From: an uncultured Bacteroidales bacterium
Lineage (GTDB): Bacteria > Bacteroidota > Bacteroidia > Bacteroidales > UBA932
Assembly: GCA_900320795.1 (NCBI GenBank)
Contig: ONTQ01000009.1
Location: forward strand, 1-49,654
DNA length: 49,654 bases
Direction: 5' to 3'
The stretch's first letter is position 1. Each line of letters opens with the position of its first letter. Shown piece by piece: positions 3,347 to 45,787 of this stretch. The notes beneath the pieces were generated by a model. The model saw only the letters and a list, made by a program, of their open reading frames with translations, did no database searches and was not told the origin of the DNA. Both the position numbers and the translations under genes were made by a program.

Positions 3347-4483
3347 GTGGTCAACCTGCAGGAGTTTGAGGATTTTCTGGGCCACCTGTTCGTTGCCCTG
3401 GACTCCCATGAAGTCCTGGGCGTGAGGGCCGTAGGAGAAGATGGGAACGGGCGTGGCGGTGTGCCAGGTGCTGATATAGACGCCTTCTTCGTTGCCTTTC
3501 TTGGGCTCTCCATTCCAGACAACCAGGCCGCCGGTTTCGTGGTCGGCACTGATGACAACCAGGGTGTTTCCGTCTTCATCGGCAAACTTGATGGCCTCGG
3601 CGATGGCTTTGTCGAAGTCCAGCAGTTCCTTCACGGCGCTGGGAAAGTCGTTGCCGTGGCAGGCTTTGTCGATGCGGGCACCCTCCACCATGAGGAAGAA
3701 GCCCTTGCCGTCCTTGGTGCGCTCGTTCAGGAAGTCGATGGCCTGACGGGTGGCGCGGGGCAGAAAGTCCGTACGGCCGTTCACGATGTAGCCGGTCTCC
3801 ACGGCGGGCGGCAGTACGCCGGCGCGGTCGGCCGCGGCAATCTTGGGATCGTCCAGGGAATTGACAACCGTAAACACTTTGTTCACAGCTTTCTGGGTTT
3901 CCAGCGGACGTGCTTCGAAGACTTCCTTGCTGCCGGCGGCGAAGTACTTGAGGACACTGCCGGGAAGATCGGCCCAGATTTCATCGGTCATGCGGCGGTG
4001 CTCCTGATGGGCGAAGAAGGCGGCGGGGGTAGCGCCGTTCAGGTCGTCCGTGGAGACTACGCCGGAAATGACGCCATATTTGGCAACCTGTTCCGGAATG
4101 TTGGGACGGGCACGCTTTTTCACGTCCACGCCTACAGCGTTGTTGTAGGTCTTGCAGCCGGTGGAATAGGCGGTACCGGAGGCGGCACTGTCGGTGGTGA
4201 AGGCATCGGCACTTTTGGTAGTCACCCATCCCATATGCTTGAGGTTGAAATAGGTAAGTTCTTCATTATTAGCGAAATAGCCAGCTGCAATCTGTGCCAG
4301 GCCCGTGCCGTCGCCAATCATCAGGATGACGTTCTTGGGAAGGTACTGGGCACCGTCCGAAGAATAGGTGGGATGATAGGAGCCCTGTGCAGGGACGCCT
4401 TCAATGGAACCTTTTACGATGTTCTGGGCATTCAGCGAGAATGCGGCGAAGGTGGCAACGGCCAGAAGGATAATCTTTTTCAT
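3329..4483 (-). CDS. Alkaline phosphatase (PhoA superfamily), secreted
   Basis: 384 residues with a signal peptide (MKKIILLAVATFAAFSLNAQ), so it is exported to the periplasm. The metal and nucleophile motifs are present: MIGDGTG (D58), TTDSAASGTAYSTG with nucleophile S99, RIDKACHGND, SADHETGG, and the late WHTATPVPIFSYG histidine. The length is normal for the compact Bacteroidota form. It hydrolyses phosphate monoesters; the natural substrate is not visible. The start overlaps the stop of the upstream PrsW-like gene as TAATG. The last codons (DHCRLDR and the TAG stop) come from a half copy of the inverted repeat described at 39425, 43109, 43192 and 45731, so the natural C-terminus seems to have been replaced or extended by that repeat. 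Confidence 0.93.
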   Translation of the reverse strand: MKKIILLAVATFAAFSLNAQNIVKGSIEGVPAQGSYHPTYSSDGAQYLPKNVILMIGDGTGLAQIAAGYFANNEELTYFNLKHMGWVTTKSADAFTTDSAASGTAYSTGCKTYNNAVGVDVKKRARPNIPEQVAKYGVISGVVSTDDLNGATPAAFFAHQEHRRMTDEIWADLPGSVLKYFAAGSKEVFEARPLETQKAVNKVFTVVNSLDDPKIAAADRAGVLPPAVETGYIVNGRTDFLPRATRQAIDFLNERTKDGKGFFLMVEGARIDKACHGNDFPSAVKELLDFDKAIAEAIKFADEDGNTLVVISADHETGGLVVWNGEPKKGNEEGVYISTWHTATPVPIFSYGPHAQDFMGVQGNEQVAQKILKLLQVDHCRLDR

Positions 4484-5292: not shown

Positions 5293-5367
5293 GGGCGGTT
5301 AGCTCAGTTGGTTCAGAGCACCTGCCTTACAAGCAGGGGGTCACTGGTTCGAATCCAGTACCGCCCA
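5293..5367 (+). tRNA. tRNA-Val (anticodon TAC)
   Basis: The 75-base cloverleaf is complete. The acceptor stem is GGGCGGT (5293-5299) with ACCGCCC (5360-5366), and the discriminator base is A. The anticodon stem is CCTGC/GCAGG around loop CTTACAA, giving anticodon TAC. The T arm is ACTGG-TTCGAAT-CCAGT. CCA is not encoded, so it is added after transcription. Confidence 0.96.
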
Positions 5368-5368
5368 C

Positions 5369-5407
5369 AAAAAAGCACCTGCAGTTTCCCCTGCAGGTGT
5401 TTTTTTT
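5369..5407 (+). terminator. Bidirectional intrinsic terminator after tRNA-Val
   Basis: A perfect 9-bp stem CACCTGCAG (5376-5384) / CTGCAGGTG (5391-5399), with a 6-base loop, is followed by eight T. On the other strand the same stem is followed by C and then six T (the A run at 5369-5374), so it may also stop transcripts coming from the macroglobulin gene. Confidence 0.85.
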
Positions 5408-5497
5408 GCCCCGCGGAGGCCCCAAAGACTGCACCCCAGGGGCAAAAACCGCTCAATTTGCCCCGCGGAGGCCCCAAAGACTGCACCCCAGGGGCAA
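5405..5497. repeat. Tandem pair of a 41-bp GC-rich repeat
   Basis: Two identical 41-base copies, at 5405-5445 and 5457-5497, are separated by 11 bases, giving a period of 52. Each copy begins TTTGCCCC and ends GGGGCAA, so each can fold back. An internal TGCACCCCAGGGGC resembles TGCACTCCAGGGGC in the spacer of the repeat at 39425. The rest of the gap to 5548 shows no gene. Confidence 0.85.
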
Positions 5498-5548: not shown

Positions 5549-8500
5549 CTATCGGGTGGCGGAGACCAGCGGGGCGCGGTAGGCGCTGTTGGCGCGGTAG
5601 TGCGGCGCGTAGAGGGACTCGATCACGGCAACCGGTGCCACGAAAGTACCGGCCCGCTGCACGTAGAACTCCTCGGAGAGTTCCGTGTTTTCTTCCGGAT
5701 AGGAGTCGAAGTAGAACTCCGTGCAGGCGGCTTTTACGTTGCGGTAGCCCTGCGGCACGAATCCCCAGGACACGGAACGCCGGCCAAAGCCGATAAAGCC
5801 GTAACCCAGATGTCCGGACAACTGCTGTACGGGCTGCAGGGAGGCTTCCCGGCCGGCAGTCAGCTTCACGAAGCTCCGGTTCTCGGCATTCCAGATGAGG
5901 TATTTCACCAGAATCTTGTCGCCCACCTGGACAGGGTCGCCGGGATGGAGATCTACCAGGGCTCCTTCCACTTCCTTGTAGAACCTGCGCTCCACTTTGA
6001 AGCCGTTTCCACTGGCCTTCACTTCCTTAAAGGGAGCTTCATAGGTGGCCGACAGTACCAGTACCTTGGTGTTCAATACAGACTCGGGGCCGTCCAGGAT
6101 GGAGGTGATGGCGTCGATATAGGCCGGTTCGGTGTCCCAGTGCTGGGTTTCCTTCTGCAGCATGAGCCACAGGCGGATGCCATTGGCCACGGGACTGTCG
6201 GAGGAAGCCACGCGGGTAAGGAGGTCGCACAGGAGCGAATGGGCATAGGCCTCGCTCTCCATGAGCCCGCGCCAGGGCATGACGGCATTGGGATAGTACC
6301 AGCCGCCGTCCCGGTGCTCCACGGCATATTCCAGGAGCGACAGTTCATCGGCATCCATGGACTTGCGCAGGGCCGATGACAGGTTCACGCCCCAGGCTTT
6401 GGCGAGGGGAAGGCCGGCGTCCAGGGAAAGCAGGTTCTCCAGGGTCATCAGCCGACGGCTCTTCTGGAGGATCTGTCCCTTGAGACCGCGTCCGTCCTTC
6501 TTGGAGGGCGTAAGGTAATCCACCGCCCACTTCTTGAAAGCCTTTATGCGCTTCTTGCCTTCCTCCGATACCGGATTCACCTCGAAGGGGACCTCGGGAT
6601 ACAGGGAGCGGATGTAGCAATACTGTGCATCGGAAAGGGCGCCGTACCAGAAAGGACGGCTTTCATCGAACTGCTCCCGGTCCAGATACTTGACTGAAGA
6701 GGTAAGGTCGGGGGAAGCGAAGCCCCGGGCACGGAGTTTGGCCGTCCGCTCCAGGAGCACGGCGGTGATGGAAGGAGAGGATTTCATTCCCTCGAACCAG
6801 CCGAAACCGCCGTCGCCGTTGCGGCATGCCATGATTTTATCCAGCAGGGCATTCTGGTCAAGAGCGGCCATGTCGGATGCCTCCTTCTTCCGGTCCAGAA
6901 TTTCGAGCCGACTTGCCATATGGCGGATGTACCAGGCTTCCGAGAGGGAAAGCACATCCTTGCCGGAAGGCTCCACATGCGAAGGGATGGCATCGCACAC
7001 CATGTCCAGAACCGAGATTTCCTTCAGGGCGGCGGCCGATGCCGGCACATTCACGAACCGGCCCTGCAGTTCCTTCAGGAGGGCTTCACGGGACATGCCG
7101 CTCCGAAGGACGACCGAATGTGCCTCTGTGAGCACCTGGGCGGCCGGATACACCGGCACAGTCACCTGCACGGCGTCGGAGAACTCCGCCGCCTTGAAGA
7201 CGGCCTTGAGGATGAGAGATTCTCCGCTTCGCTCAGGATGACAGGAGGGGCAGGTGAGCCGGAAGGTATGGGAGAGAACTTCGCCGGGGGCCACGGTTAC
7301 GGGAACCATCTGGGACGCAGCGGGTTCCCCTTCCGCGGAAGTCACCAGCACCAGGGTGCCGGAGACGGGCTTTTCACTGTTGGAAGAGACCGTGAGTACG
7401 CAGTCGTACACGTCTCCCGCATACAGGAAGCGGGGCTCCGAAAGGGCCACCTTCACCGGCACGGACACCACCATCTCTTTCTCTACCAGGGCGTTGTGCA
7501 TTCCTTTGTCGTGGGAGAGGGCCCTTACATAATAGGTAGAGAGTTTGTCTGATGTGCGGAAACTGAATTCCAGTGTCCCGTCGGCCGATGTGAGAAGATG
7601 CGGCTGGAAGGTGAGGGCCGTGGAGAAATCGGTGCGGAGAGGCACGTCGGCCGCAGCCTCCCCGGCCGATGCGGACGCATTCCTCCCCGGCACATTGCCG
7701 GACTCCTTCATTACGGGAGCGGCGGCAGGGGCGGCATCGGCCATCATCATCTCAGATTCGAAGGCCACTCCGCCCTTGGTCATGCCGCGGTACAGGATAC
7801 GGTCCACATAAGCCTTCCCTACCCGGCCGCATTCGCTTTCCACGGACAGGTAGTCCACGGAGACATCCAGGGTGTTCACCAGCGGCCAGCCGTTGTGCTG
7901 GACGGCATCCAGGCTCTTGTCCCAGGCCGCCACCAGCACCTCGGTGGAAGGAGCGGTCCGGAGGGCGAAACTGTACAGTGCGCCCGGATAGGCCTTGTCG
8001 TGGAAACGAGTAAACTGCAGCGGCAGGCTGTAGCGGTCTTTCTCCCGGCGGAACTGCCAGTCGTAGTTCACGGCAGTCCCGTGAATGAAATAGAACACCT
8101 GCAGGCGCACGGCATCAGGATAAGACTCCCTGTATTCAAAAGAGAGGTCTTCGATGGTGCCGTCGGCCACCTCCAACTTCCTGGATTCCAGCACCTGGCG
8201 GCCTTCTCCGTACAGGAGCACAAGGGCATACGCCTTTCCTTCGGAAGTGCCCATCCGGGCCGATATCGGCGCACCGGCAGCCACGGTGAGCGGCCCGGGG
8301 ATGAACACCCGGCTCACCTGCGGCATCAGGGTCTTTTCGGCCTCCGGAATGCAGTAGAAGTAGAAACTGCGCGCCCTGGAAATACGACGGCCGTCCTTTG
8401 CCGCCACCTCCACCAGCGTCTCCAGTTTATAGAATCCGCCGCCGGGCAGGTCGAAGGAAAGGTCCTTTCCGGACGGGGTTTCTCCGGTAGCAAGGACGGT

Positions 8501-10708
8501 TTTATCGGCCCCCAGGAGGGTGTATTGCACGGGGAGGGGCACGGTATGGCCGGACGCGTCGCGGCCTTCGAGCCGAAGCCGCAGCGTTGTTCCCAAAAGG
8601 GTGTATCGGGGATATTCCTTGTCTTTGGGGACGAGGTCAGAATCGGCATCGTCCGGAACAATCGCCTCCACGGAAATCTCATCGCCCACATAAAAGCCGT
8701 TGGAGAAACTGAGCGTTTCGCCGGTAGCGTCCGTCACTTTCACTTCCGCGTGATAATAACCCCTTTCGCGGGCCGGGAAAAGGAAGCGGAAGGTATTGTC
8801 GGCCGATATTTCCCCTTCCTGTTCCAGGACAGGTCTGCCGAACAAGTTGACATTGAACGAGACATGGCTTCCGGCGAGGCTGTGTCCGGACAGGGACGTG
8901 ACCTTGCCGCTCACGAGGACCGTATCCCCTGCCAGATAAAGCCGGTCCACCGGGTCGAAACTGAGTTCGAAACTGGGCAGCACGAACTCGTCCACGCGGA
9001 AGTAAACGGTTTCCAGACCGGATATGGAGAGGCTGAAACGGCCGTTTCTGGCACCCAGGGGCAGCACAAATCGGCCGCTCACAGAACCGAATTCGTTGGT
9101 TTTCAGGGACAAAGCGCCAATCTGCTTGCCTTCGGAGTCCCTGAGGCGGGCTTCCACATCCTTTCCTTCCACCACGGAGAAGGAGCGCCGGGGATCTCCC
9201 TGATAGACCACGGCCTTGAAGTTCACCGTGTCGCCGGGATGATAGGCGCCCTGGTCACGGTAGATGTTGCAGCGGATGCGGTCTCTTTCATAATAGGAGT
9301 AATAGCGGTCGGAAAGGCTCACCGGGCGGGATTTGCGGTCTTCGCTGATGGCCTGGAGGGTGAGGTAGGCATCCTCTTTGTCCATGACTTTCACAAAAGC
9401 CTGCGGCAGCGGGGTGAAGCCGTCCAGCCTGAGGGTGGTCCTGCTCAGTACCTTGTCTCCCTTCAACAGATGCAACGTCGCCTTCTGGAGCGGCTGCCCG
9501 GTCTCGTAATCGGCCACATAGACTTTGGCGCCTTCGGCATCCCTGCGGGTGGCGATGGAGAGGGTGAACTGCGTGTAGGCGTCCATGGAGGACAGTTTGC
9601 CGTTTACGGCCTCCACGGTATAGTCTCCGTCTTCCAACGCAGGCATCTTGAGCGTAAGCGTATCCTTAATATAGAAACTGCCGATGGGATTGACGGCCTT
9701 CCAGGTCTTGATGCTCTTGTCTCCGCGGCGAAGGGTTACCGTGGCGCGGTCCAGATTCCGGAAAATGACACGGATGATGTCCTTGTCCATGGTCACTTCC
9801 AGGTTCTTGCCGGTGAGGATGCCGATGAGTTCCGACGGGGCCTTGCAGCCGGCGGCGATATCGGCCTCAGTACCGCGATAGGCATTGCGCTCGGCTTCCA
9901 GGCGCTTCGCATTCTCGCAGAGGGAACGGTACATCTCGGCCGTGGAATGGTCCTCCTTGTCCAACTCCCTTTTACGAAGGTCCAGCAGGGCAGCCTTGGG
10001 ATAAACCGAGACGGCCTTCCCGCTGTATTTGTTGGCAAAGGCGGCCAGGTTCTGCCGCTGCTCATCCCTCTGGGATTCCGGATAATAGCGGCTGCTGAGC
10101 ACATGGTATTCAAGGGCGGCCTCGTTGGGATAGACGCCCGAAATCTCTGAGAGCAGCGCTTTATAAACCTCATCCCCCGGAAGGTTGTAACTTCCGCGAT
10201 TGGCAAGAATGCGCCACAGGACATATTCCTTGTCACTACGGATGAAAGGCTTCAGCGTGCCGCCCAGATAGCCCTGGATATTGCGGTAAAAGGCCGGCGT
10301 ATGGCCCTGGAACCGGTCTTCGTTCTGCTTGACAAAAGCCCACAGGGCATCCGAGGAGGCCCCGTTCCAGGCGTTCATCCAGTGGAAAGTGACAATGGGC
10401 TCGTCAAACTCCTTCACCTCTTTCTCCAACTCTGCGCGGAGGCGGTTCTGCTGCTTCCAGTCCCGGCGCACGACCACGTTCACATAGGTGGTGGCGGCGT
10501 CGTAAAAATCGACAGGAAGGTGCTTCTGAATGGCCTCTTCCTTGATTTGGCCAAGGATTTCCGCCTCCTTCTGGGGGCGGTCGGCCTTGGAGGCTTCCTC
10601 GTACTGCTTCCATAGGGCGGTGAGTACATGACCATCATTCATAGGCGATGCAATGGCTGCGGTACCGGTCATCAGGGCCAGTAACCAGGTGAAGAAACTT
10701 CTTTTCAT
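5549..10708 (-). CDS. Alpha-2-macroglobulin family protein (giant, secreted)
   Basis: 1719 residues with an N-terminal signal sequence (MKRSFFTWLLALMTGTAAIA). Near residue 488, YHPGDTVNF marks an MG2 domain; DEFVLPSFEL and LYLAGDTVLVSG belong to the following MG domains. Around 1036-1070, LTFQPHLLTSADGTLEF with FRTSDKLSTYYVRALS fits the A2M bait-adjacent domain. A helical thioester-domain-like region and a C-terminal beta domain follow. I see no CxEQ thioester motif before the helical domain, so covalent trapping looks lost. Bacterial relatives guard the envelope against proteases or act in surface protein handling. Residues near 1155-1163 (CHPERSGES) are encoded by a short repeat-like insertion at 7216-7245. 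It lies 45 bases downstream of folC and is probably co-transcribed with it. Confidence 0.85.
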   Translation of the reverse strand: MKRSFFTWLLALMTGTAAIASPMNDGHVLTALWKQYEEASKADRPQKEAEILGQIKEEAIQKHLPVDFYDAATTYVNVVVRRDWKQQNRLRAELEKEVKEFDEPIVTFHWMNAWNGASSDALWAFVKQNEDRFQGHTPAFYRNIQGYLGGTLKPFIRSDKEYVLWRILANRGSYNLPGDEVYKALLSEISGVYPNEAALEYHVLSSRYYPESQRDEQRQNLAAFANKYSGKAVSVYPKAALLDLRKRELDKEDHSTAEMYRSLCENAKRLEAERNAYRGTEADIAAGCKAPSELIGILTGKNLEVTMDKDIIRVIFRNLDRATVTLRRGDKSIKTWKAVNPIGSFYIKDTLTLKMPALEDGDYTVEAVNGKLSSMDAYTQFTLSIATRRDAEGAKVYVADYETGQPLQKATLHLLKGDKVLSRTTLRLDGFTPLPQAFVKVMDKEDAYLTLQAISEDRKSRPVSLSDRYYSYYERDRIRCNIYRDQGAYHPGDTVNFKAVVYQGDPRRSFSVVEGKDVEARLRDSEGKQIGALSLKTNEFGSVSGRFVLPLGARNGRFSLSISGLETVYFRVDEFVLPSFELSFDPVDRLYLAGDTVLVSGKVTSLSGHSLAGSHVSFNVNLFGRPVLEQEGEISADNTFRFLFPARERGYYHAEVKVTDATGETLSFSNGFYVGDEISVEAIVPDDADSDLVPKDKEYPRYTLLGTTLRLRLEGRDASGHTVPLPVQYTLLGADKTVLATGETPSGKDLSFDLPGGGFYKLETLVEVAAKDGRRISRARSFYFYCIPEAEKTLMPQVSRVFIPGPLTVAAGAPISARMGTSEGKAYALVLLYGEGRQVLESRKLEVADGTIEDLSFEYRESYPDAVRLQVFYFIHGTAVNYDWQFRREKDRYSLPLQFTRFHDKAYPGALYSFALRTAPSTEVLVAAWDKSLDAVQHNGWPLVNTLDVSVDYLSVESECGRVGKAYVDRILYRGMTKGGVAFESEMMMADAAPAAAPVMKESGNVPGRNASASAGEAAADVPLRTDFSTALTFQPHLLTSADGTLEFSFRTSDKLSTYYVRALSHDKGMHNALVEKEMVVSVPVKVALSEPRFLYAGDVYDCVLTVSSNSEKPVSGTLVLVTSAEGEPAASQMVPVTVAPGEVLSHTFRLTCPSCHPERSGESLILKAVFKAAEFSDAVQVTVPVYPAAQVLTEAHSVVLRSGMSREALLKELQGRFVNVPASAAALKEISVLDMVCDAIPSHVEPSGKDVLSLSEAWYIRHMASRLEILDRKKEASDMAALDQNALLDKIMACRNGDGGFGWFEGMKSSPSITAVLLERTAKLRARGFASPDLTSSVKYLDREQFDESRPFWYGALSDAQYCYIRSLYPEVPFEVNPVSEEGKKRIKAFKKWAVDYLTPSKKDGRGLKGQILQKSRRLMTLENLLSLDAGLPLAKAWGVNLSSALRKSMDADELSLLEYAVEHRDGGWYYPNAVMPWRGLMESEAYAHSLLCDLLTRVASSDSPVANGIRLWLMLQKETQHWDTEPAYIDAITSILDGPESVLNTKVLVLSATYEAPFKEVKASGNGFKVERRFYKEVEGALVDLHPGDPVQVGDKILVKYLIWNAENRSFVKLTAGREASLQPVQQLSGHLGYGFIGFGRRSVSWGFVPQGYRNVKAACTEFYFDSYPEENTELSEEFYVQRAGTFVAPVAVIESLYAPHYRANSAYRAPLVSATR
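7216..7245 (-). repeat. Short dispersed-type repeat inserted in frame in the macroglobulin gene
   Basis: On the minus strand this reads TGTCATCCTGAGCGAAGCGG followed by AGAATCTC and encodes the peptide HPERSGES. It resembles a short repeat I recall from many unrelated bacteria, often translated as HPERSEGS. Only one copy is seen in this window. Confidence 0.5.
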
Positions 10709-39424: not shown

Positions 39425-39474
39425 CCGCCTCGACACCAAATCGCCCCTGGAGTGCATTCTACGTGTCGAGGCGG
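39425..39474 (-). repeat. RAYT-linked inverted repeat, copy a
   Basis: Perfect 12-base arms CCGCCTCGACAC (39425-39436) and GTGTCGAGGCGG (39463-39474) flank 26 bases. On the minus strand the spacer starts GTAGAATGCACTCC and ends near GGGGCGATTTG. It lies between the convergent 3' ends of GH130 and the DUF262 gene. Confidence 0.85.
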
Positions 39475-39481
39475 ACGGCCT

Positions 39482-40654
39482 TTATCGATTCCCTTTGGTT
39501 CGATTGTGGGTTTTGCAGAGCATCTGGCAGTTTTCGATATCGGTGGGACCGTTCTTGCTCCAGGCTGTTACGTGGTCGGCGTCCATTTCGGCCAGTTTCC
39601 AAATGCGGGTACGATTGGCATCGTGGCCGATGGCGCACAGCGGGCAATTGGAAATGCCCTTCTTCTCTGCATCCGTGGTCTGTCGGGCATATACCGTTTT
39701 CTTCGTAGGCTCGTCAAAGACACGGACATTGAGAAGACGAGGCTCCTGGCAATCTCCCAGGATGTACTCAAAAATGCCCTTCTTCTCTTTGACATAGAAG
39801 TTTTCGTAGAGTTCTCTGACTTTCGCGGCAACGGCAGCCGGATCATACCCTCTCTTATGATATTTTTCATATAGGTCTCCCCACTTGAGGCCACACATCT
39901 CTTTCTCTGGCTGAATATCAAATACAGATGTAATCCAATCGATTACGGAATTGAAATAGGCTTTGAGTTCGGTGATGTCCGAGTTGTACCGGTGCGTGGC
40001 CATGTAGTCTTCCGTGTGCCCCTTGCTCACCCAGTCCAGGGCTGCAGCCAGATAATCCTGTCGCTTGGCCGTTCCCGGGATAAAACAACTCCATTTGTTG
40101 ATATTGGTATTATTGGAATTGGAGAACTCTTCTTTCGCCTTGGTGATGAAAGGACCGGAATAAACGGCATTGAGTGTCTCTTGCAAGTTGAGGGGAATTC
40201 CCACGATATTAATCGTCCGGAACCAGTCTTTGATTTCCGGCTCAGTTCCCTCGCAGACATAAATCAGCAGCGGAGTATCCAAAAATGTCTTTTGTTCCTC
40301 CGGATTCAATGACGTGAAATACCAGGGACGTCCATTCTCATCAATCCAAGCAAATTTCTCCGTAATGAATCGGCCCAGGGAAGTGATTCGTTGCTGTCCG
40401 TCCAACACTTCATAGTGGTCTTCACCCACCTTGGAGAAGTAGATGAGTCCCAGCGGATAACCGTTCCTTACAGACCGGATTACATCCACCTCTTTTTTCC
40501 CTCCGTTCTCGGCATACAGATAGTGCCGCTGGAATTCCGGCTGGATGGTCAAACGACCGGAAAGCCCATACAGGCCTTTGCCTTCGTATTCGTTGTACTG
40601 GAACCCCTTGCATATATCGCCGATGGTCCATTCGTTTACAAGACGTGCAATCAT
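39482..40654 (-). CDS. DUF262-HNH endonuclease-like protein
   Basis: 390 residues. The N-terminal DUF262 (ParB/Srx-like) domain has FQRHYL at 41-46 and DGQQRITSLGRF at 85-96. The C-terminal HNH nuclease has CPLC at about 340, DADHVTAWSKNG and CQMLCKTHNRTKGN. DUF262-HNH proteins include the modification-dependent GmrSD-type nucleases and partners of phage-defence methyltransferases. It follows the EcoRI-type methyltransferase gene by 33 bases, so the two make a restriction-modification-like pair. The region is visibly lower in GC than its neighbours, suggesting transfer. The two-domain reading is confident; the cutting rule is not. Confidence 0.87.
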   Translation of the reverse strand: MIARLVNEWTIGDICKGFQYNEYEGKGLYGLSGRLTIQPEFQRHYLYAENGGKKEVDVIRSVRNGYPLGLIYFSKVGEDHYEVLDGQQRITSLGRFITEKFAWIDENGRPWYFTSLNPEEQKTFLDTPLLIYVCEGTEPEIKDWFRTINIVGIPLNLQETLNAVYSGPFITKAKEEFSNSNNTNINKWSCFIPGTAKRQDYLAAALDWVSKGHTEDYMATHRYNSDITELKAYFNSVIDWITSVFDIQPEKEMCGLKWGDLYEKYHKRGYDPAAVAAKVRELYENFYVKEKKGIFEYILGDCQEPRLLNVRVFDEPTKKTVYARQTTDAEKKGISNCPLCAIGHDANRTRIWKLAEMDADHVTAWSKNGPTDIENCQMLCKTHNRTKGNR

Positions 40655-40687
40655 AATTGTTGTGATTTTACTGACAAACAGTTGATT

Positions 40688-41821
40688 TCATTGTTTTTTA
40701 CGAATTATAACCCGTTTATACTTGGCTATTCGGTTTACAACCGGCCCTGTCGTCAATCCCGGAATCTTCATGAAACGCACGTCGCTTCCGCAGATTAATG
40801 CAGGATAAGTTTTGGAAACTTCCGGTTCAAAGTTTCCAAATAAACCGACGATTTCAAATTGCTCCGGACAGTATTTATCCAAAAACGTAATCGGAACACC
40901 CATGGCGTCATTATAATCACTCGGAATAGCATCCGTATAGCCAATGTCAATGGCATCGTAATTATCGTACTTTAAGTATCCGTATTCTTTGATGTCTTTA
41001 TGCTTTCCAAAACGCTTATTGTCTGACATTGACATCAACTGCATAGGTTGATGCCTCCGACCGTGGTCCAGGTTAGTAAACCAACAGGAATTACCCAAAC
41101 GAGTATAGTCTCCCGTATAGCCAAGTTTCTGGGCTTTCGCTTTGTCCTTCGGATCGACTTCCGTCCCTTTCGGAACTCCGAATACCATATCGGACATAAA
41201 ACCTGTTGCACCAAGCCAAATACGATTCTCGCGAATTAACGAGAATATTTCCCGATAAGTGATTGCGTTGATGTTACCAATGATCAGCATGTCCTTTTCA
41301 GATGAAACTATCCACGCGACAAACTCCCGGAACAGAGAAAATGGCGGATTTGTTATGATGATATCGGCCTGGTCCCTCAAAGCGCAAACCTCCGGGCTGC
41401 GAAAATCGCCGTCCCCTTCCAGATAGTGCCACTCCAGGTCGTCGATGTCAATGCGGCCGCTGCCGTCTGCATCCCGGTTCAACTCGAAAATCTTCCCGTT
41501 GATACGGGTTTTGTCGGCATCGAAGATGGGACTGTCCATTTCGAACAGGGTAGGTTCATAGTTCTTGTATTTCTTGCTTTCAACGGCATAGGATGTGCTG
41601 ATGAGGCGTTTAAGCCCCAAGCGCTCGAAGTTCTGGGCAAAGAAGCGGGTAAAATTACTCCACTCCGGATCATCGCACGGAAGAAGCACCGTCTTGTCTC
41701 GGAAAGTGTTAGGATTGTACTCCAGATAGGCATTGATCTCCTTCTGGATGTCGGCATATTGAGTATAAAACTCATCATTCTTGGCAGCCTTCGCGGCACC
41801 AAGATTACTGTTATTAGCCAT
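40688..41821 (-). CDS. EcoRI-family adenine-specific DNA methyltransferase
   Basis: 377 residues from ATG 41821; a GTG at 41875 is in frame but lies at the end of the terminator's T run. It starts NNSNLGAAKAAKNDEFYTQY, as in EcoRI-type methyltransferases. It has VLLPCDDPEWSNFTRF at 45-60 and the catalytic NPPF at 158-161 (ITNPPFSLFREF). It would transfer a methyl group from SAM to adenine N6. Whether it reads GAATTC is unknown. It precedes the DUF262-HNH gene, probably as modification partner. Its 5' leader holds a long rod-like fold and an intrinsic terminator (41876-42015), so expression may be attenuated. GC is visibly below the flanking DNA. Confidence 0.88.
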   Translation of the reverse strand: MANNSNLGAAKAAKNDEFYTQYADIQKEINAYLEYNPNTFRDKTVLLPCDDPEWSNFTRFFAQNFERLGLKRLISTSYAVESKKYKNYEPTLFEMDSPIFDADKTRINGKIFELNRDADGSGRIDIDDLEWHYLEGDGDFRSPEVCALRDQADIIITNPPFSLFREFVAWIVSSEKDMLIIGNINAITYREIFSLIRENRIWLGATGFMSDMVFGVPKGTEVDPKDKAKAQKLGYTGDYTRLGNSCWFTNLDHGRRHQPMQLMSMSDNKRFGKHKDIKEYGYLKYDNYDAIDIGYTDAIPSDYNDAMGVPITFLDKYCPEQFEIVGLFGNFEPEVSKTYPALICGSDVRFMKIPGLTTGPVVNRIAKYKRVIIRKKQ

Positions 41822-41875
41822 AAGCTGCGCTCTTATGGCATTTGCCGGCTTATCCGGACGGGCTGGCCAGGGCAC

Positions 41876-41907
41876 AAAAAAGGGCGCAGACTTAACTATC
41901 TACGCCC
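41876..41907 (-). terminator. Intrinsic terminator inside the methyltransferase leader
   Basis: On the minus strand GGGCG pairs with CGCCC and AGA with TCT, with one mismatch and an 8-base loop, followed by six T. It lies upstream of the methyltransferase ATG. Its first arm shares 41904-41907 with the closing stem of the rod-like fold, so the two structures compete. Confidence 0.7.
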
Positions 41908-42015
41908 TGAGGCCCTAGGAAGCCCGTAACACTAGATAAGTCAAGCCTACGCCAACGCGCAGGCATTCACTGACTCATCCGGTGTGTTACATTGAAATTT
42001 CCTAGGTTTCAGGGC
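41904..42015 (-). ncRNA. Long rod-like predicted RNA (leader or small RNA)
   Basis: Five nested stems line up. GCCCTGA (41904-41910) pairs with TCAGGGC (42009-42015). CCTAGGAA (41914-41921) pairs with TTCCTAGG (41999-42006). GTAACAC (41926-41932) pairs with GTGTTAC (41984-41990). GATAAGTCA (41935-41943) pairs with TGACTCATC (41971-41979) with one mismatch. GCCT-A-CGC (41945-41952) pairs with GCG-C-AGGC (41957-41964) around loop CAAC. A -7 box lies upstream on the minus strand (42075-42082), and the terminator overlaps the closing stem. I recognise no known RNA class. Confidence 0.6.
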
Positions 42016-42074
42016 AACCGAATAAATAGCAAATGCTATATCAAAAATATGTCTCCTTCATCGCGAAGGTGAAA

Positions 42075-42082
42075 CAAAGATA
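42075..42082 (-). promoter_or_regulatory. -7 box for the leader and methyltransferase pair
   Basis: TATCTTTG on the minus strand. It would give a 5' leader of about 250 bases ahead of the methyltransferase ATG. An ATAGCA-AA-TGCTAT palindrome lies at 42026-42039, between it and the rod. Confidence 0.5.
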
Positions 42083-42147
42083 AGAAATTGTTTTCATGAA
42101 TCGTAAAAAACATCTGAAAAAACACCTGAAACAGCACTTTCTTTTTT

Positions 42148-43104
42148 ATGAATCTTGGCAAATTCATTCCTGAAAATTACCTTGCGGCCATGAAAGAGTC
42201 GTATCATATTTGCTTCACATCACATGATGAGGTGATTTTCCGGGACGATGAGGACCACGGAATGTTTGTCAATCTTATGGCGCTCCGCTGCTTTGCAGAG
42301 GGAGCTGAAATGCTGGTGGATGCGGAGATGTCCACCCATGCCCATCTGAACATCTTTACAGATGAGCCCATGCGATATGCCTCCAACCTGCGCCTTTCGT
42401 ACACGCGATACTTCAATAAAAAGTACGGACGGGAGGGCAGACTGGGCCAGAAAGGCACTTTTATCTTGAAGATAGAAGGACATGTGCACCAGATGGTTTT
42501 GCAGAACTACATCGGCCGGAACGGACTTCATCACAATGCGGCGGCCACGGCTTTCGGCTACAAATACTGTAGCACAAGGGATTTGTTCTCGGAAGACATC
42601 GGCATGCAGACAGAGAAGGCTGTTCCCATGAGCCGGGCTGATATCGCCTCTTACCTTCCCCGCCATGCAGAGTTCCCGGACGAGTACCAGATGAATGAGC
42701 ACGGCGTCTTCGTCCGCCGCAGTTTCATGGAACTCCGGCGTGCCGAGCAGTTCTACGGCACGCCCAGGAACTATCTCTACCAGATGAACCGGCCGACGGA
42801 CGAAAGCTGGTCCCGGGAGCAGGAGGAAGAACACACCGGAAAACCGCTGACCCTTAGCGATATAGAACAGGCCGATGCCCATTCCATCGCCCAGATGCTC
42901 AAAAACGAGACCGGCCGAAACTTCAGCCGCTCCCGTCTGCAGGATCTGGATGTCTGCCGCCTCATTGACAAAGACTTCCTGCCACGGTACGGAGCATCCT
43001 CTATCTACCAACTCACGGAATCTCAGAAAAAACGTATCGCCCGTACACTCTACTACGATTACCGTCTTCCGGACTACCAAATCCGTCGCTGTCTGGCCTT
43101 GTAG
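42148..43104 (+). CDS. REP-associated tyrosine transposase (RAYT, Y1/IS200-like HUH family)
   Basis: 318 residues. The Y1 transposase core is in the first 130 residues: the HUH motif is H64-A-H66 in MSTHAHLNIF, then RYFNKKYGREGRLGQKG and a helix QNYIGRNGLHH whose Y121 is the likely catalytic tyrosine. A C-terminal extension of about 190 residues (130-318) has no motif I can name. RAYTs nick and move single-stranded palindromic repeats. Two copies of a matching inverted repeat lie right after its stop, in opposite orientations, and more lie elsewhere in the window. It is divergent from the methyltransferase leader. No strong plus-strand -7 box is seen. Confidence 0.82.
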   Translation: MNLGKFIPENYLAAMKESYHICFTSHDEVIFRDDEDHGMFVNLMALRCFAEGAEMLVDAEMSTHAHLNIFTDEPMRYASNLRLSYTRYFNKKYGREGRLGQKGTFILKIEGHVHQMVLQNYIGRNGLHHNAAATAFGYKYCSTRDLFSEDIGMQTEKAVPMSRADIASYLPRHAEFPDEYQMNEHGVFVRRSFMELRRAEQFYGTPRNYLYQMNRPTDESWSREQEEEHTGKPLTLSDIEQADAHSIAQMLKNETGRNFSRSRLQDLDVCRLIDKDFLPRYGASSIYQLTESQKKRIARTLYYDYRLPDYQIRRCLAL

Positions 43105-43108
43105 CCTT

Positions 43109-43160
43109 GCCGCCTTGACACACAGAGGGCTGGAGAAGGGCGTTTTTGTGTCGAGGCGGC
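43109..43160 (+). repeat. RAYT-linked inverted repeat, copy c
   Basis: Arms GCCGCCTTGACACA (43109-43122) and TGTGTCGAGGCGGC (43147-43160), with one T/C difference, flank about 26 bases, counting the shared 12-base core. It starts 4 bases after the RAYT stop codon, in the opposite orientation to the next copy. Confidence 0.85.
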
Positions 43161-43191
43161 CGCGCTTTTGGCACAAACCGGCGTTTTTCGT

Positions 43192-43243
43192 GCCGGCTCG
43201 ACGCAAAATCGGCCCTGGAGTGCATTCTACGTGTCGAGGCGGC
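43192..43243 (-). repeat. RAYT-linked inverted repeat, copy b
   Basis: Arms GCCGGCTCGACGC (43192-43204) and GTGTCGAGGCGGC (43231-43243) with two mismatches flank 26 bases. On the minus strand the spacer is almost identical to copy a (GTAGAATGCACTCC shared). With copy c it makes an oppositely oriented pair behind the RAYT gene. Confidence 0.85.
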
Positions 43244-43288
43244 AGGAACGGCCGCAGGAGAGCACGGGACCTGGCTGCATGGACGACC

Positions 43289-43426
43289 AGGCGCCTAAAG
43301 CGAGCGAACGGGCAGGCAGGCGCTGAGACGGAAGAGGCACCTAAAGCGAACGAACGGGCAGGCAGGCGCTGAGACGGAAGAGGCACCTGGAGCGAACGAA
43401 CGGGCAGGCAGGCGTAGAGGCGGAAG
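43289..43426. repeat. Three tandem 46-bp repeats
   Basis: The units are 43289-43334, 43335-43380 and 43381-43426, each starting AGGC(G/A)CCT and carrying ACGGGCAGGCAGGCG. The first two differ at 2 positions; the third is more diverged at both ends. They lie between copy b and the end of the GH92 gene. No protein function is assigned to this stretch, and the rest of 43105-43468 shows no gene. Confidence 0.85.
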
Positions 43427-43468
43427 AGGCGGTTAGGGTTGCAAAGGTATGGCCAGGTATGGACGGGA

Positions 43469-45682
43469 TTATTTCCAGACGATGGACTTGGTGCGCAGGA
43501 GGTCCTGGTGGGAGATGCGGTAGCCTTTGTGCCTGCCGTCCACCAAGGCGCGGCCGGCGCGCTCCGATGCACGGCTTACCTCCAGTTCAGAGCCGTCCGG
43601 CAGGGTTACCCTGGCTTTCGGGAAGGTGGGGCGCGTGAGGGTAAAGTACGGCTCTCCGGGGCAGTCGGGATAGAAGCCCAGCATGGAGAAGACGGCCCAG
43701 GCGCTCATGGTGCCGGTGTCGTCGTTGCCGGGGATGCCGTCCGGCGCGTTCTTGTAGTTCTTGGCCAGGATGCTTTCTACGGCCGCCCAGGTGCGTTTTT
43801 CCTGCCCTTTGAAACGGCTGAACAGGTACGGATATACGATGTCCGGCTCGTTGGCGGGGTCGTAGAGACCGTTGTCGAAGACGTGCTGCAGATTGTCTAC
43901 GAAGGCTTTCGGCCCGCCCATCAGTTTGGCGTAGCCGGCTACATCGTGCGGAACGGCAAAACTGTAGTTCCAGGCGCTGCCTTCGTGGAAGCCGGGGGCG
44001 TTGGAGAAATCGGCCCCGTCCTCCGGGTTGAAGGGAGAGAGGAAGGTGCCGTCACGGTTGATGGGCCTCAGGCACTTGTACTCTGCGCTATAATAGTTCC
44101 TGTAGCCCAGGGAACGGGCGTGGAAGCGGGCGGCGTCCTCGGAGCGGCCCAGGCTGGCCGCAAGGCGGGAGAGGGCATAATCGGCCACGTAGTATTCCAG
44201 GGCGTGGGAGACGGAATTGTCTCCGGAGAAGTCTCCGGCGAACCAGCCAAGCGGAATGTAGCCTTCCGCCACGTAAGGGTCATTGTCCGGGCGCATGAGG
44301 TTCCGGGCGCCGGGAGTATCGGCCGATTTCAGGAACGCCGCATAGGCCGTTTCAATATCGAAGTCGCGGAGGCCGCGAAGCCAGGTGTCGGCGATGACGC
44401 AGATGGCGGGATCCCCTTCCATGGTCCAGGTTTCCCGGCCGAAGAGCTCCCATTTGGGCATCCAGCCCCACTCGCGGTACTGGTCAATCATGGAGCGGAC
44501 CATGTCGGCTTGCTTTTCGGGCCAGAGGAGGGTCATGAGTTGATGGAGGTTCCGGTAGGTGTCCCAGAGGGAGAACACAGTGTAGCGGGTGCGGCCAGGT
44601 TCCACGCGGCCTACGCCGGCGCCGGACTCCATGAGCGGGTATTCGCCGTTCACGTCATTGAGCACATTGGGATGCAGAAGCGTATGATACAGAGCCGTAT
44701 AGAAGATGGTCTTCTGGTCGTCGGTGCCGCCTTCCACGCAGATGCGGCCCAGATGCTGCTGCCAGGTGGCATCGGCCTGGGCACGGACGGCCTCGAAGCG
44801 GAAGCCCTGCTGTTCGGCGTCCAGATTCTCGCGGGCATTGGCGATGCTTACAAACGAAACGCCCATCTGCACCAGAATCTGCTCGCCTTCCTGCAGGCCT
44901 TCGTAGTGGAACCAGCAGCCGATGTCATCCCCGCTCATCTCACGGGCGTAGTTCCGGTATAGTTTGTACTTGCCCGCATCGGCATCCCAGGCGGCCTCAG
45001 CGGTCATGGAACGCTGTTTTTTCCAGTAGCCGGCGCTGGTGGGAACCTTGCTCACACGCAGAACGAAGTACAGCGGGAACACGGCATTGCGGTTGTAGCA
45101 GAAGGTGCCCATGAGTTTGGAACCCTCCACCTCCGTATCGGAGACGCGCCGCACGGTGGCGCCGCTCTCATTGGTAAGGCCTTCGCCCAGGTTCAGGAGG
45201 ATGTTGCCCTCGCCGGCGGGGAAGGTATAGCGCTCCAGGGAAGTGCGTGTGGTGGCCGTGGCTTCCGTGAAAACGCCGTTCAGAAGTTGTACGCTATAGT
45301 ATCCGGGGTGCGCTTCCTCATTCTTGTACTCACTGCCGTAGAGGTGGTAGTCCACCTGCAGCGGTCCCGTGGTGGGCATGGTGAGAAGGCTTCCCAGTTC
45401 CGGGCAGCCCACCCCGGAGAGGTTCACATGCGCATAGCCCGTGAAGAAACTGTTCTCCGCCACGTACGGCGTGCTCCACCATCGGCTGTCCTTGTCCCAG
45501 GTGTTGAGCTGGGACCCCATCACATTGAAGGGCGTCACGCTCATCATCCCGCCCGGCACCACCGCCCCGGGATTACAGGCCCCAAAATTGGACGTGCCGA
45601 TAAACGGATTCACCCACTCGGTCTGGGCCCGGAGCCCTCCGGCAACCAGCAGCAGTACAGCGAAGACAGCGATTCTTTTCAT
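43469..45682 (-). CDS. GH92 alpha-mannosidase, secreted (first copy)
   Basis: 737 residues from ATG 45682, which gives a clean signal peptide (MKRIAVFAVLLLVAGGLRAQ). A -7 box at 45700-45707 rules out the longer frame. GH92 motifs: TEWVNPFIGTSNFGACNPGA near the N-terminus, FYTALYHTLLHPNVLND, FSLWDTYRN, GWMPKWELFGRETWTMEGD and the typical GNDDTGTMSAWAVFSMLGFY with PDCPG. GH92 enzymes are calcium-dependent exo-alpha-mannosidases acting on N-glycans and mannans, usually periplasmic. A GH125 and a second GH92 lie upstream on the same strand, though the REP copy d lies between, so this gene has its own promoter. Confidence 0.93.
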   Translation of the reverse strand: MKRIAVFAVLLLVAGGLRAQTEWVNPFIGTSNFGACNPGAVVPGGMMSVTPFNVMGSQLNTWDKDSRWWSTPYVAENSFFTGYAHVNLSGVGCPELGSLLTMPTTGPLQVDYHLYGSEYKNEEAHPGYYSVQLLNGVFTEATATTRTSLERYTFPAGEGNILLNLGEGLTNESGATVRRVSDTEVEGSKLMGTFCYNRNAVFPLYFVLRVSKVPTSAGYWKKQRSMTAEAAWDADAGKYKLYRNYAREMSGDDIGCWFHYEGLQEGEQILVQMGVSFVSIANARENLDAEQQGFRFEAVRAQADATWQQHLGRICVEGGTDDQKTIFYTALYHTLLHPNVLNDVNGEYPLMESGAGVGRVEPGRTRYTVFSLWDTYRNLHQLMTLLWPEKQADMVRSMIDQYREWGWMPKWELFGRETWTMEGDPAICVIADTWLRGLRDFDIETAYAAFLKSADTPGARNLMRPDNDPYVAEGYIPLGWFAGDFSGDNSVSHALEYYVADYALSRLAASLGRSEDAARFHARSLGYRNYYSAEYKCLRPINRDGTFLSPFNPEDGADFSNAPGFHEGSAWNYSFAVPHDVAGYAKLMGGPKAFVDNLQHVFDNGLYDPANEPDIVYPYLFSRFKGQEKRTWAAVESILAKNYKNAPDGIPGNDDTGTMSAWAVFSMLGFYPDCPGEPYFTLTRPTFPKARVTLPDGSELEVSRASERAGRALVDGRHKGYRISHQDLLRTKSIVWK

Positions 45683-45699
45683 ATTGCAAGGTGTTTTCA

Positions 45700-45707
45700 C
45701 AAAAATA
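45700..45707 (-). promoter_or_regulatory. -7 box of the first GH92 gene
   Basis: TATTTTTG on the minus strand, 17 bases before ATG 45682. It supports the downstream start over the in-frame ATG at 45793. Confidence 0.55.
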
Positions 45708-45730
45708 CGAATATTTTTCGGATTGTACGT

Positions 45731-45787
45731 TGCCGCCTCGACACTTAGAACGCCGTAGAAGGAGGCCGATTCTGTGTCGAGGCGGTA
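45731..45787 (+). repeat. RAYT-linked inverted repeat, copy d
   Basis: Perfect 12-base arms CCGCCTCGACAC (45733-45744) and GTGTCGAGGCGG (45774-45785), with an outer T-A pair, flank 29 bases. The spacer ends GGCCGATTCT, matching the ends of the other copies. It lies between GH125 and the first GH92 gene. Confidence 0.85.

Follow-up and report, generated by a model that had tools for sequence, protein, structure and literature searches.

The window, by which we mean the whole stretch of 49,654 nucleotides analysed here, comes from the draft genome of a gut Bacteroidales bacterium (2.8 Mb in 266 contigs, 85% complete; G000 below). On its plus strand, at 42148–43104, it carries a gene for a RAYT-like protein of 318 residues, which is predicted to adopt the Y1-HUH fold, with an HUH-type motif H64-A-H66, a tyrosine at position 121 and a helical C-terminal part. 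Upstream of this gene, on the minus strand, lie a gene for a GmrSD_N-HNH protein (39482–40654; Pfam), which matches the PADLOC model REase_II for type II restriction enzymes at 3.2e-75, and a gene for an EcoRI-type adenine methyltransferase (40688–41821; PF13651, 2.5e-123; PADLOC MTase_II, 1.2e-88). By these model matches the pair is a type II restriction-modification system; its activity is inferred. The methyltransferase gene is preceded by a structured leader RNA with a terminator-like hairpin (41819–42091, minus strand), for which folding of positions 41876–42030 gave a z score of −6.8.

Four inverted repeats with 12-bp arms, CCGCCTCGACAC/GTGTCGAGGCGG, accompany these genes. Repeat a (39425–39474, minus strand) has exact arms and a 26-nt spacer and ends 7 bp before the stop codon of the HNH reading frame; it is upstream of the RAYT gene, beyond the restriction-modification pair. 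Directly behind the RAYT gene, whose stop codon ends at 43104, repeat b begins after 4 bp (43109–43160, plus strand, with the 12-bp arms at 43110–43159; one mismatch in the left arm, 26-nt spacer). A 31-nt linker (43161–43191, plus strand) joins it to repeat d (43192–43243, minus strand, with the arms at 43193–43242; two mismatches in the left arm, 26-nt spacer), giving a dimer of 83-bp pitch. Repeat c (45731–45787, plus strand, arms at 45733–45785) has exact arms and a 29-nt spacer and lies between the GH92 and GH125 genes. The spacers are asymmetric, those of a and d (92% identical) reading in one direction and those of b and c in the other. Allowing two mismatches, the arm occurs 16 times in the window, a number reached in none of 100 shuffles. 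Folded as single-stranded DNA, repeats a to d all form a hairpin (z scores in the set −4.6, −2.8, −3.7 and −5.8). None of the four is directly followed by a run of five T, and an Rfam search with them returned no match. Shortly past repeat d there are three tandem 46-bp repeats (43289–43426), and elsewhere in the window two identical 41-bp copies (TTTGCCCCGCGG..CCAGGGGCAA; 5405–5497, 52 bp from start to start) are found shortly past a tRNA gene (5293–5367).

Up to E 10, the protein matches no NCBIfam or Pfam model, Y1_Tnp (PF01797) included, and no PDB sequence; among 31 aligned family members only 3 reach PF01797, the best at E 0.058. An AlphaFold model built on the 31-sequence alignment has a mean pLDDT of 92.8 and a pTM of 0.89. 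When this model was submitted to Foldseek, 15 chains were returned at E 0.001 or better, 14 of them IS200/IS605-type transposases and the remaining one 4er8, the complex of a RAYT with its REP hairpin (E 5e-4; TM score 0.70 by target length and 0.37 by query). His64, His66 and Tyr121 are invariant across the 31 sequences, and Tyr121 is presumed, by inference, to be the catalytic residue. It lies in the motif YIGRNGLHH, of which the family form is YIxRN with HH. Three helices are modelled in the C-terminal part (266–281, 291–305 and 309–316), where a helix-turn-helix domain like that of the TIRYTs discussed below is possible; no domain match was obtained. The gene is present once in the genome, and the eight other matches there are only 17–26% identical to it, in keeping with RAYTs in general, for which a single full-length gene per repeat type is usual.

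A preliminary description, made from sequence alone, had called this gene a RAYT. Since the predicted fold is Y1-HUH, we regard the call as right even though the sequence is very divergent. The four full repeats with 12-bp arms and 26–29-nt spacers which it listed were also confirmed, each within 2 bases of the coordinates it gave, as was the opposite orientation of the two repeats just past the RAYT stop codon, which is evident from the spacer asymmetry. On the other hand, position 41904, given there as the start of the feature, is not the left end of the RAYT unit; it falls within the leader RNA of the restriction-modification pair.

Local repeat families at RAYT loci in relatives

Named relatives are bins of uncultured Bacteroidales or Bacteroidia, often assigned by title to ruminant gut sites; their genomes are drafts made up of many contigs. 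In a sample of 400 congeneric genomes, a RAYT relative was detected at E 1e-40 or better in 125. We examined 78 RAYT loci including the window, in stretches of 4.4 to 19 kb. The first set came from 43 matches (the window, 38 matches in 37 fetched regions, and 4 fragments that were left out), and the second comprised 40 of the 42 highest-ranking new places, with G196, a second place in G297 and all lower ranks excluded. A local family was defined as at least two inverted repeats with a common arm in the stretch (arm of at least 9, spacer of 8–45). Such families were found at 62 of the 78 loci (25/38 in the first set, 37/40 in the second), as compared with 1 of 20 control regions, each 12.9 kb long, from 11 of the RAYT-bearing genomes (Fisher p 8e-10). 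Sixteen RAYT loci had none, and a few of the 62 positive loci, for example L054 and L136, may reflect chance or tandem duplications.

The arms differ by lineage. The window and L068 have GCCGCCTYGACA, L066 and L067 have GCCGCGTTGACA, L069 to L071 have GCCGCGWTTRCA, and further out the arms are quite different. Over the 1891 pairs of the 62 loci, arm similarity correlates with RAYT identity (Pearson/Mantel r 0.69); none of 2000 permutations gave a value as high, the largest being 0.25. Shared descent of arms and genes at the locus would by itself be enough to pass a Mantel test. RAYTs housed in one genome have unlike arms, the best arm scores being 0–6 for nine locus pairs in seven genomes (of the 10 with at least two fetched loci), as compared with a median of 13 for RAYT pairs 75–85% identical (n = 18).

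The loop behaves differently from the stem. In the close group (146 repeats from 35 loci) the consensus consists of a 12-bp stem and the loop AAATCGGCCTTCTACGGCATTCT, in effect a doubled CGGCNTTCT, and the loop core AATCGGCC is common to close relatives. ATCGGC occurs in 59 of the 146 close-group spacers (shuffle mean 1.8). Among RAYTs less than 58% identical, the far group, the core is weaker, with ATCGGC in 8 of 69 spacers (shuffle 0.6). Spacing is also regular, since 66 of the 86 neighbour spacings under 130 bp, taken over the loci, equal 82–83 bp. In 24 of the 56 loci with a downstream family repeat, the first such repeat begins no more than 30 bp past the last RAYT codon.

One part of the preliminary description was not supported. 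It had compared a conserved GTAG just inside the left arm with the tetranucleotide of E. coli REPs; GTAG is no feature of the family, being present in 33 of 146 close-group spacers at a shuffle mean of 25. Nor is there a GT[AG]G foot outside the stem or at the hairpin base (10 of 215 repeats, shuffle mean 9.2). GGGGWSAS, a motif reported for other repeats discussed below, is likewise at shuffle level (2 of 215 repeats; shuffle 3.1).

Dispersed copies and their matching RAYTs

Narrow patterns first suggested that the family was local to the RAYT. CGACACN{20,36}GTGTCG recovered the window copies and a single chance-like match, and GCCTCGACACN{22,34}GTGTCGAGGC recovered only the source genome among 120. 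The innermost arm base varies, so these patterns missed dispersed copies, and the local reading was rejected once looser patterns had found them. In the source genome the looser pattern matches 10 places on 6 contigs (reversed-pattern control, 0). Repeat d, with its worn arm, escapes the pattern and raises the count to at least 11 dispersed copies; the family, described at first from the window only, thus reaches beyond it, over 6 contigs of the assembly.

That copy number should follow the presence of a matching RAYT was a check named beforehand, and it was passed for the most part, cleanly for one arm type and imperfectly for two. The clean case is the sister arm type GCCGCGNTTRCA, with 42, 10 and 9 copies in 3 of 73 genomes, exactly those whose RAYT bears that arm, and none in the other 70 (reversed pattern, 0). 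The window arms, CCTCGACA, matched in 10 of 400 genomes. There are 8 copies in the source genome, 4 in G362 and 2 in G368, and the RAYT repeats of the latter two have exactly these arms. One copy was found in G248; the RAYT there is truncated and lies at the end of a contig that also bears GCCGCCTTGAC repeats. G200 and G340 have 2 copies each, although the sampled RAYTs there bear other arms. Single matches in G067, G292, G435 and G437 were taken for chance; the reversed pattern matched 6 places in 5 genomes. The third arm type, CGTTGACA, matched in 24 of 400 genomes (control, 3 genomes). At least three copies were present in 8 genomes, 6 of which have a RAYT with that arm; no matching RAYT was found for the 4 copies in G034 or the 3 in the source genome itself. 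One spacer found with this pattern, recurring in G038, G200, G254, G394 and G416, may be coding sequence.

The genomes are incomplete and remnants are to be expected, which bears on the copies for which no matching RAYT was found. The distribution resembles that of a REP family with remnants, its association with the matching RAYT being imperfect. No clean case of an empty and a filled site for a single repeat was obtained, as the flanks were too diverged. At one shared gene there is a repeat cluster on one side in G038, a copy on the other side in G005 and no pattern match in G037; we do not count this as proof.

Gene order and the restriction-modification cassette

In L108, L110, L112, L115 and L127 the same restriction enzyme and methyltransferase pair is located between left repeats and the RAYT; in L067, for which the stretch yielded no left repeat, it is also upstream of the RAYT. 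Reading frames flanking the cassette differ among loci, except that the window, L108 and L112 share a site, and the sister loci L131 and L109 are without the pair. At L117, which has repeats to the left and to the right, a split type IIG-like system stands in place of the cassette; genes of this system were also found in L120 and L066, whose stretches contain no left repeat (the models were run on L117 only). The methyltransferase was found at 29 places at 60% identity or better, of which 28 were inspected (G230 was excluded). Seven adjoin a RAYT of this subfamily and one (L156) a truncated RAYT. In L148 (4278–7800) the RAYT that precedes the same pair is a different one; GTGCCCGGTGGTG repeat pairs occur on either side, and the leader RNA is cut short near the RAYT stop codon. 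For 19 places no RAYT was present in the fetched stretch; for L150 the stretch stops at a contig end, and in L154 and L167 repeat pairs are found close by.

The leader RNA consists of nested helices, and the stretch that precedes the start codon (GGATAAGTCGCAAGTGCC..GCGCAGCTTATG in relatives) is similar to a portion of the RNA. In 16 sequences, 14 of 64 predicted pairs were changed on both sides. There is no Rfam match. Matches to the RNA were detected in 13 of 20 fetched methyltransferase regions (one partial), and it accompanies the restriction-modification pair even with no RAYT nearby, so that 41904 was rejected as an end of the RAYT unit. When the source genome was compared in 100-base bins with G362, which represents another species, identity was 98–100% over 39.5 to 42.2 kb (39490–42200) as compared with 62–95% in flanking genes; the cassette must therefore have been exchanged recently, apart from the RAYT. 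Because this tract was exchanged between the two genomes independently of the RAYT, the idea that the interval between repeats is the fixed cargo space of a composite transposon is weakened; at the loci inspected, moreover, most of the genes lying between distant repeats are not cargo common to several loci. The G362 locus (L108) also has a 113-bp insertion between the restriction enzyme and methyltransferase genes which, with inverted ends GACAATGACTTCGGAC/GTCCGAAGTCATTGTC, has the look of a miniature element.

Neighbouring genes at the repeats differ in order or direction between species. Gene order often varies among loci that occupy a common host site. Fifty-six locus pairs had three or more blocks, each at least 500 bp long, in common; 35 of these pairs are rearranged, and 52 of 78 breakpoint intervals contain a family repeat, where 17.2 would be expected for random intervals of equal widths; many of the intervals are wide. 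Since repeats crowd round the RAYT, narrow junctions away from it provide the fair test. There a repeat was found in 15 of 30 rearranged as compared with 3 of 36 collinear junctions (random expectation 2.2 and 3.3; Fisher p 2e-4), while the corresponding numbers adjoining the RAYT are 30 of 38 and 22 of 42 (Fisher p 0.02). These counts exclude loci lacking a family and any junction over 1000 bases in width. Every pair entered in both reading directions, and Fisher's test treats junctions as independent, which is not fully true.

In the window, the segment between repeats d and c (43244–45730) holds the GH92 gene (about 43469–45682, minus strand). The core of this segment (43496–45717) is inverted in G368 (L112), and the two junctions coincide with repeats d and c. 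G349 has the order GH130, GH92, inverted RAYT and the GH125 side, and G362 has the gene order of the window. Similar rearrangements are seen for L126/L128, L070/L071 and L127/L131, of which L070 has only half copies and no called family.

A probable REPtron-like system and rival explanations

Taken together, the locus is likely a REPtron-like system, in which a divergent gene for an HUH endonuclease of the TnpA-REP/RAYT kind is accompanied by cognate hairpin repeats, both clustered and dispersed. What is shown comprises the repeats, the predicted fold, the local families in relatives, the correlation of arms with RAYTs, the dispersal, and a dependence on the RAYT that is imperfect. The idea of the preliminary description that the repeats are the RAYT's own REP-like family is supported by these data. 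That the protein is a RAYT of Y1-HUH fold rests on the model, and its cleavage and rejoining of the single-stranded repeat are inferred from the fold and from comparison, as there are no nicking data. The cognate repeats would be non-autonomous elements of about 52 nt (12-bp stem, 26–29-nt loop), mostly in dimers of 83-bp pitch. On a displaced single strand the repeat would fold into its hairpin, and the protein would recognise the lineage-specific stem together with the conserved loop core and nick beside the hairpin through Tyr121, with His64 and His66 as the HUH pair. The nicked strand would be joined elsewhere, so that repeats are copied or moved. Genes lying between repeats may be flipped and shuffled through these strand exchanges or through homologous recombination of the repeats.

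The repeats could instead be ordinary 3′-end structures, terminators or mRNA stabilisers, with the RAYT nearby only by accident. The closeness of repeats b and a to stop codons and the 24 of 56 loci with a downstream repeat within 30 bp of the RAYT end speak for this. However, none of the window repeats has the directly following T run, the arms are common within a locus and differ between loci, RAYT loci have families so much more often than controls (62/78 as compared with 1/20), and dispersed copies largely follow the matching RAYT; we consider this reading very unlikely. We give as little credence to the whole unit being an insertion sequence of the IS200/IS605 type with the repeats as its ends. 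The catalytic fold is that of the IS608 and ISDra2 TnpA proteins, and many loci have repeats on either side of the gene. Unlike a multi-copy insertion sequence, however, the protein is encoded once in the genome, apart from the eight distant matches; the repeats also occur as dimers, arrays and dispersed copies and not merely as element ends; and no TnpB model matched among the 8 window proteins scanned.

A more serious possibility is that the system is already known in kind, as one more TIRYT/TIRtron (Di Nocera 2013, PMC3733652; equal to TnpAY1 subclass 2.1 according to Quentin 2018, PMC6006769) or a member of subclass 2.6, the RAYT group 5 of Bacteroidetes. Each TIRYT, like the RAYTs here, comes with long inverted repeats of its own that bear no relation to GTAG REPs; some of these are dimers or clustered, and some families are dispersed (PMC3733652). 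Subclass 2.6, from the same phylum, has atypical secondary structures on either side of the gene and further copies of them at other places (PMC6006769). On repeat, motif and length features alone, we nevertheless lean against it. The family lacks GGGGWSAS, which is common to some TIRs, and its repeats are hairpins placed to either side and in tandem, where TIRYTs have a single pair of terminal repeats. Members of subclass 2.6 have a median length of 179 residues and the motif YIH[QN]NP, whereas the window protein has 318 and YIxRN with HH and is missed by PF01797. A design with variable stem and conserved loop was not found in the relevant sections of those papers. A rival of a different kind concerns the rearrangements alone, which might stem from mis-assembly, at the repeats, of bins built from short-read metagenomes. 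Each of these draft genomes is split into many contigs, and the junction repeats of L128, L131, L070 and L071 have exact stretches of 52–67 bases in common. The longest such stretch is only 14 bases at the GH92 ends of the window, 15 in L109 and 29 in L112, however, and we judge these too short to confuse most assemblers. Mis-assembly has to be reckoned with in such bins, and we consider it possible, though not likely, as the source of the signal.

The REPtron-like reading is best compared with the E. coli REPtron (TnpA-REP with Y and Z REPs; PDB 4ER8), which has the same Y1-HUH fold, a chromosomal gene with hairpins nearby and dispersed, and dimers. In contrast to it, the window family has no GT[AG]G foot, has a 12-bp stem with a 26–29-nt loop, and varies the stem by lineage while conserving the loop core, and its protein has no Pfam or PDB sequence match. 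In E. coli the features that count are GTAG, the bulge and two positions of the lower stem, and the role of the upper stem-loop is structural and non-specific (PMC8266576). Our data thus support a new variant with a variable stem, a loop conserved among close relatives and no GTAG. The preliminary description had supposed the REP family to be possibly undescribed, and we found no description of it in the open-access literature searched (subscription journals and preprints were outside the search), nor any account of a Bacteroidales case, of a RAYT accompanied by a restriction-modification cassette, or of inversion breakpoints at RAYT repeats.

A bolder reading, which we put forward only as possible, is that the RAYT and its dimeric hairpins constitute a local gene-shuffling system. 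Repeats between genes would be the sites of recombination, by the RAYT or by the host, through which blocks of genes such as GH92 between d and c are inverted, swapped and exchanged, with restriction-modification cassettes taken up and replaced alongside. Each RAYT lineage would read its own stem, a private address, and close relatives a common loop core. It is already in print that REP clusters are recombination hot spots in Pseudomonas, with no RAYT action needed (PMC11708052). The P. fluorescens SBW25 clusters resemble ours in lying at rearrangement points; here, in contrast, gene blocks are flipped or swapped locally, between species, and between lineage-specific repeats round a RAYT. The shuffling role is bold but testable, and the breakpoint association brings the RAYT itself, as a driver of gene-order change and of restriction-modification gene traffic, within reach of experiment.

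How a RAYT tells its own repeats from those of another is known from few biochemical models, those of E. coli, S. maltophilia and Marinomonas (PMC8266576). The genus provides dozens of natural protein-repeat pairs of one architecture, with diverging stems and a loop core common to close relatives, and specificity becomes testable by arm swaps between proteins 60–90% identical. As to the RAYT paralogs of the source genome, no convincing repeat family was seen for six of them. A seventh (L015) has a different family, GGAGGGTTTAGCAC..GTGCTAACCCCTCC, in clusters at 779–812 and 4101–4175 of its stretch. The eighth (L019) has many repeats, clustered at 7938–8020 and 10059–10325 (TCGTGCACCAAACNGCCCCTTTTCGTGCACGA), and their spacer, CAAACNGCCCCT, is like that of repeat a, CAAATCGCCCCT.
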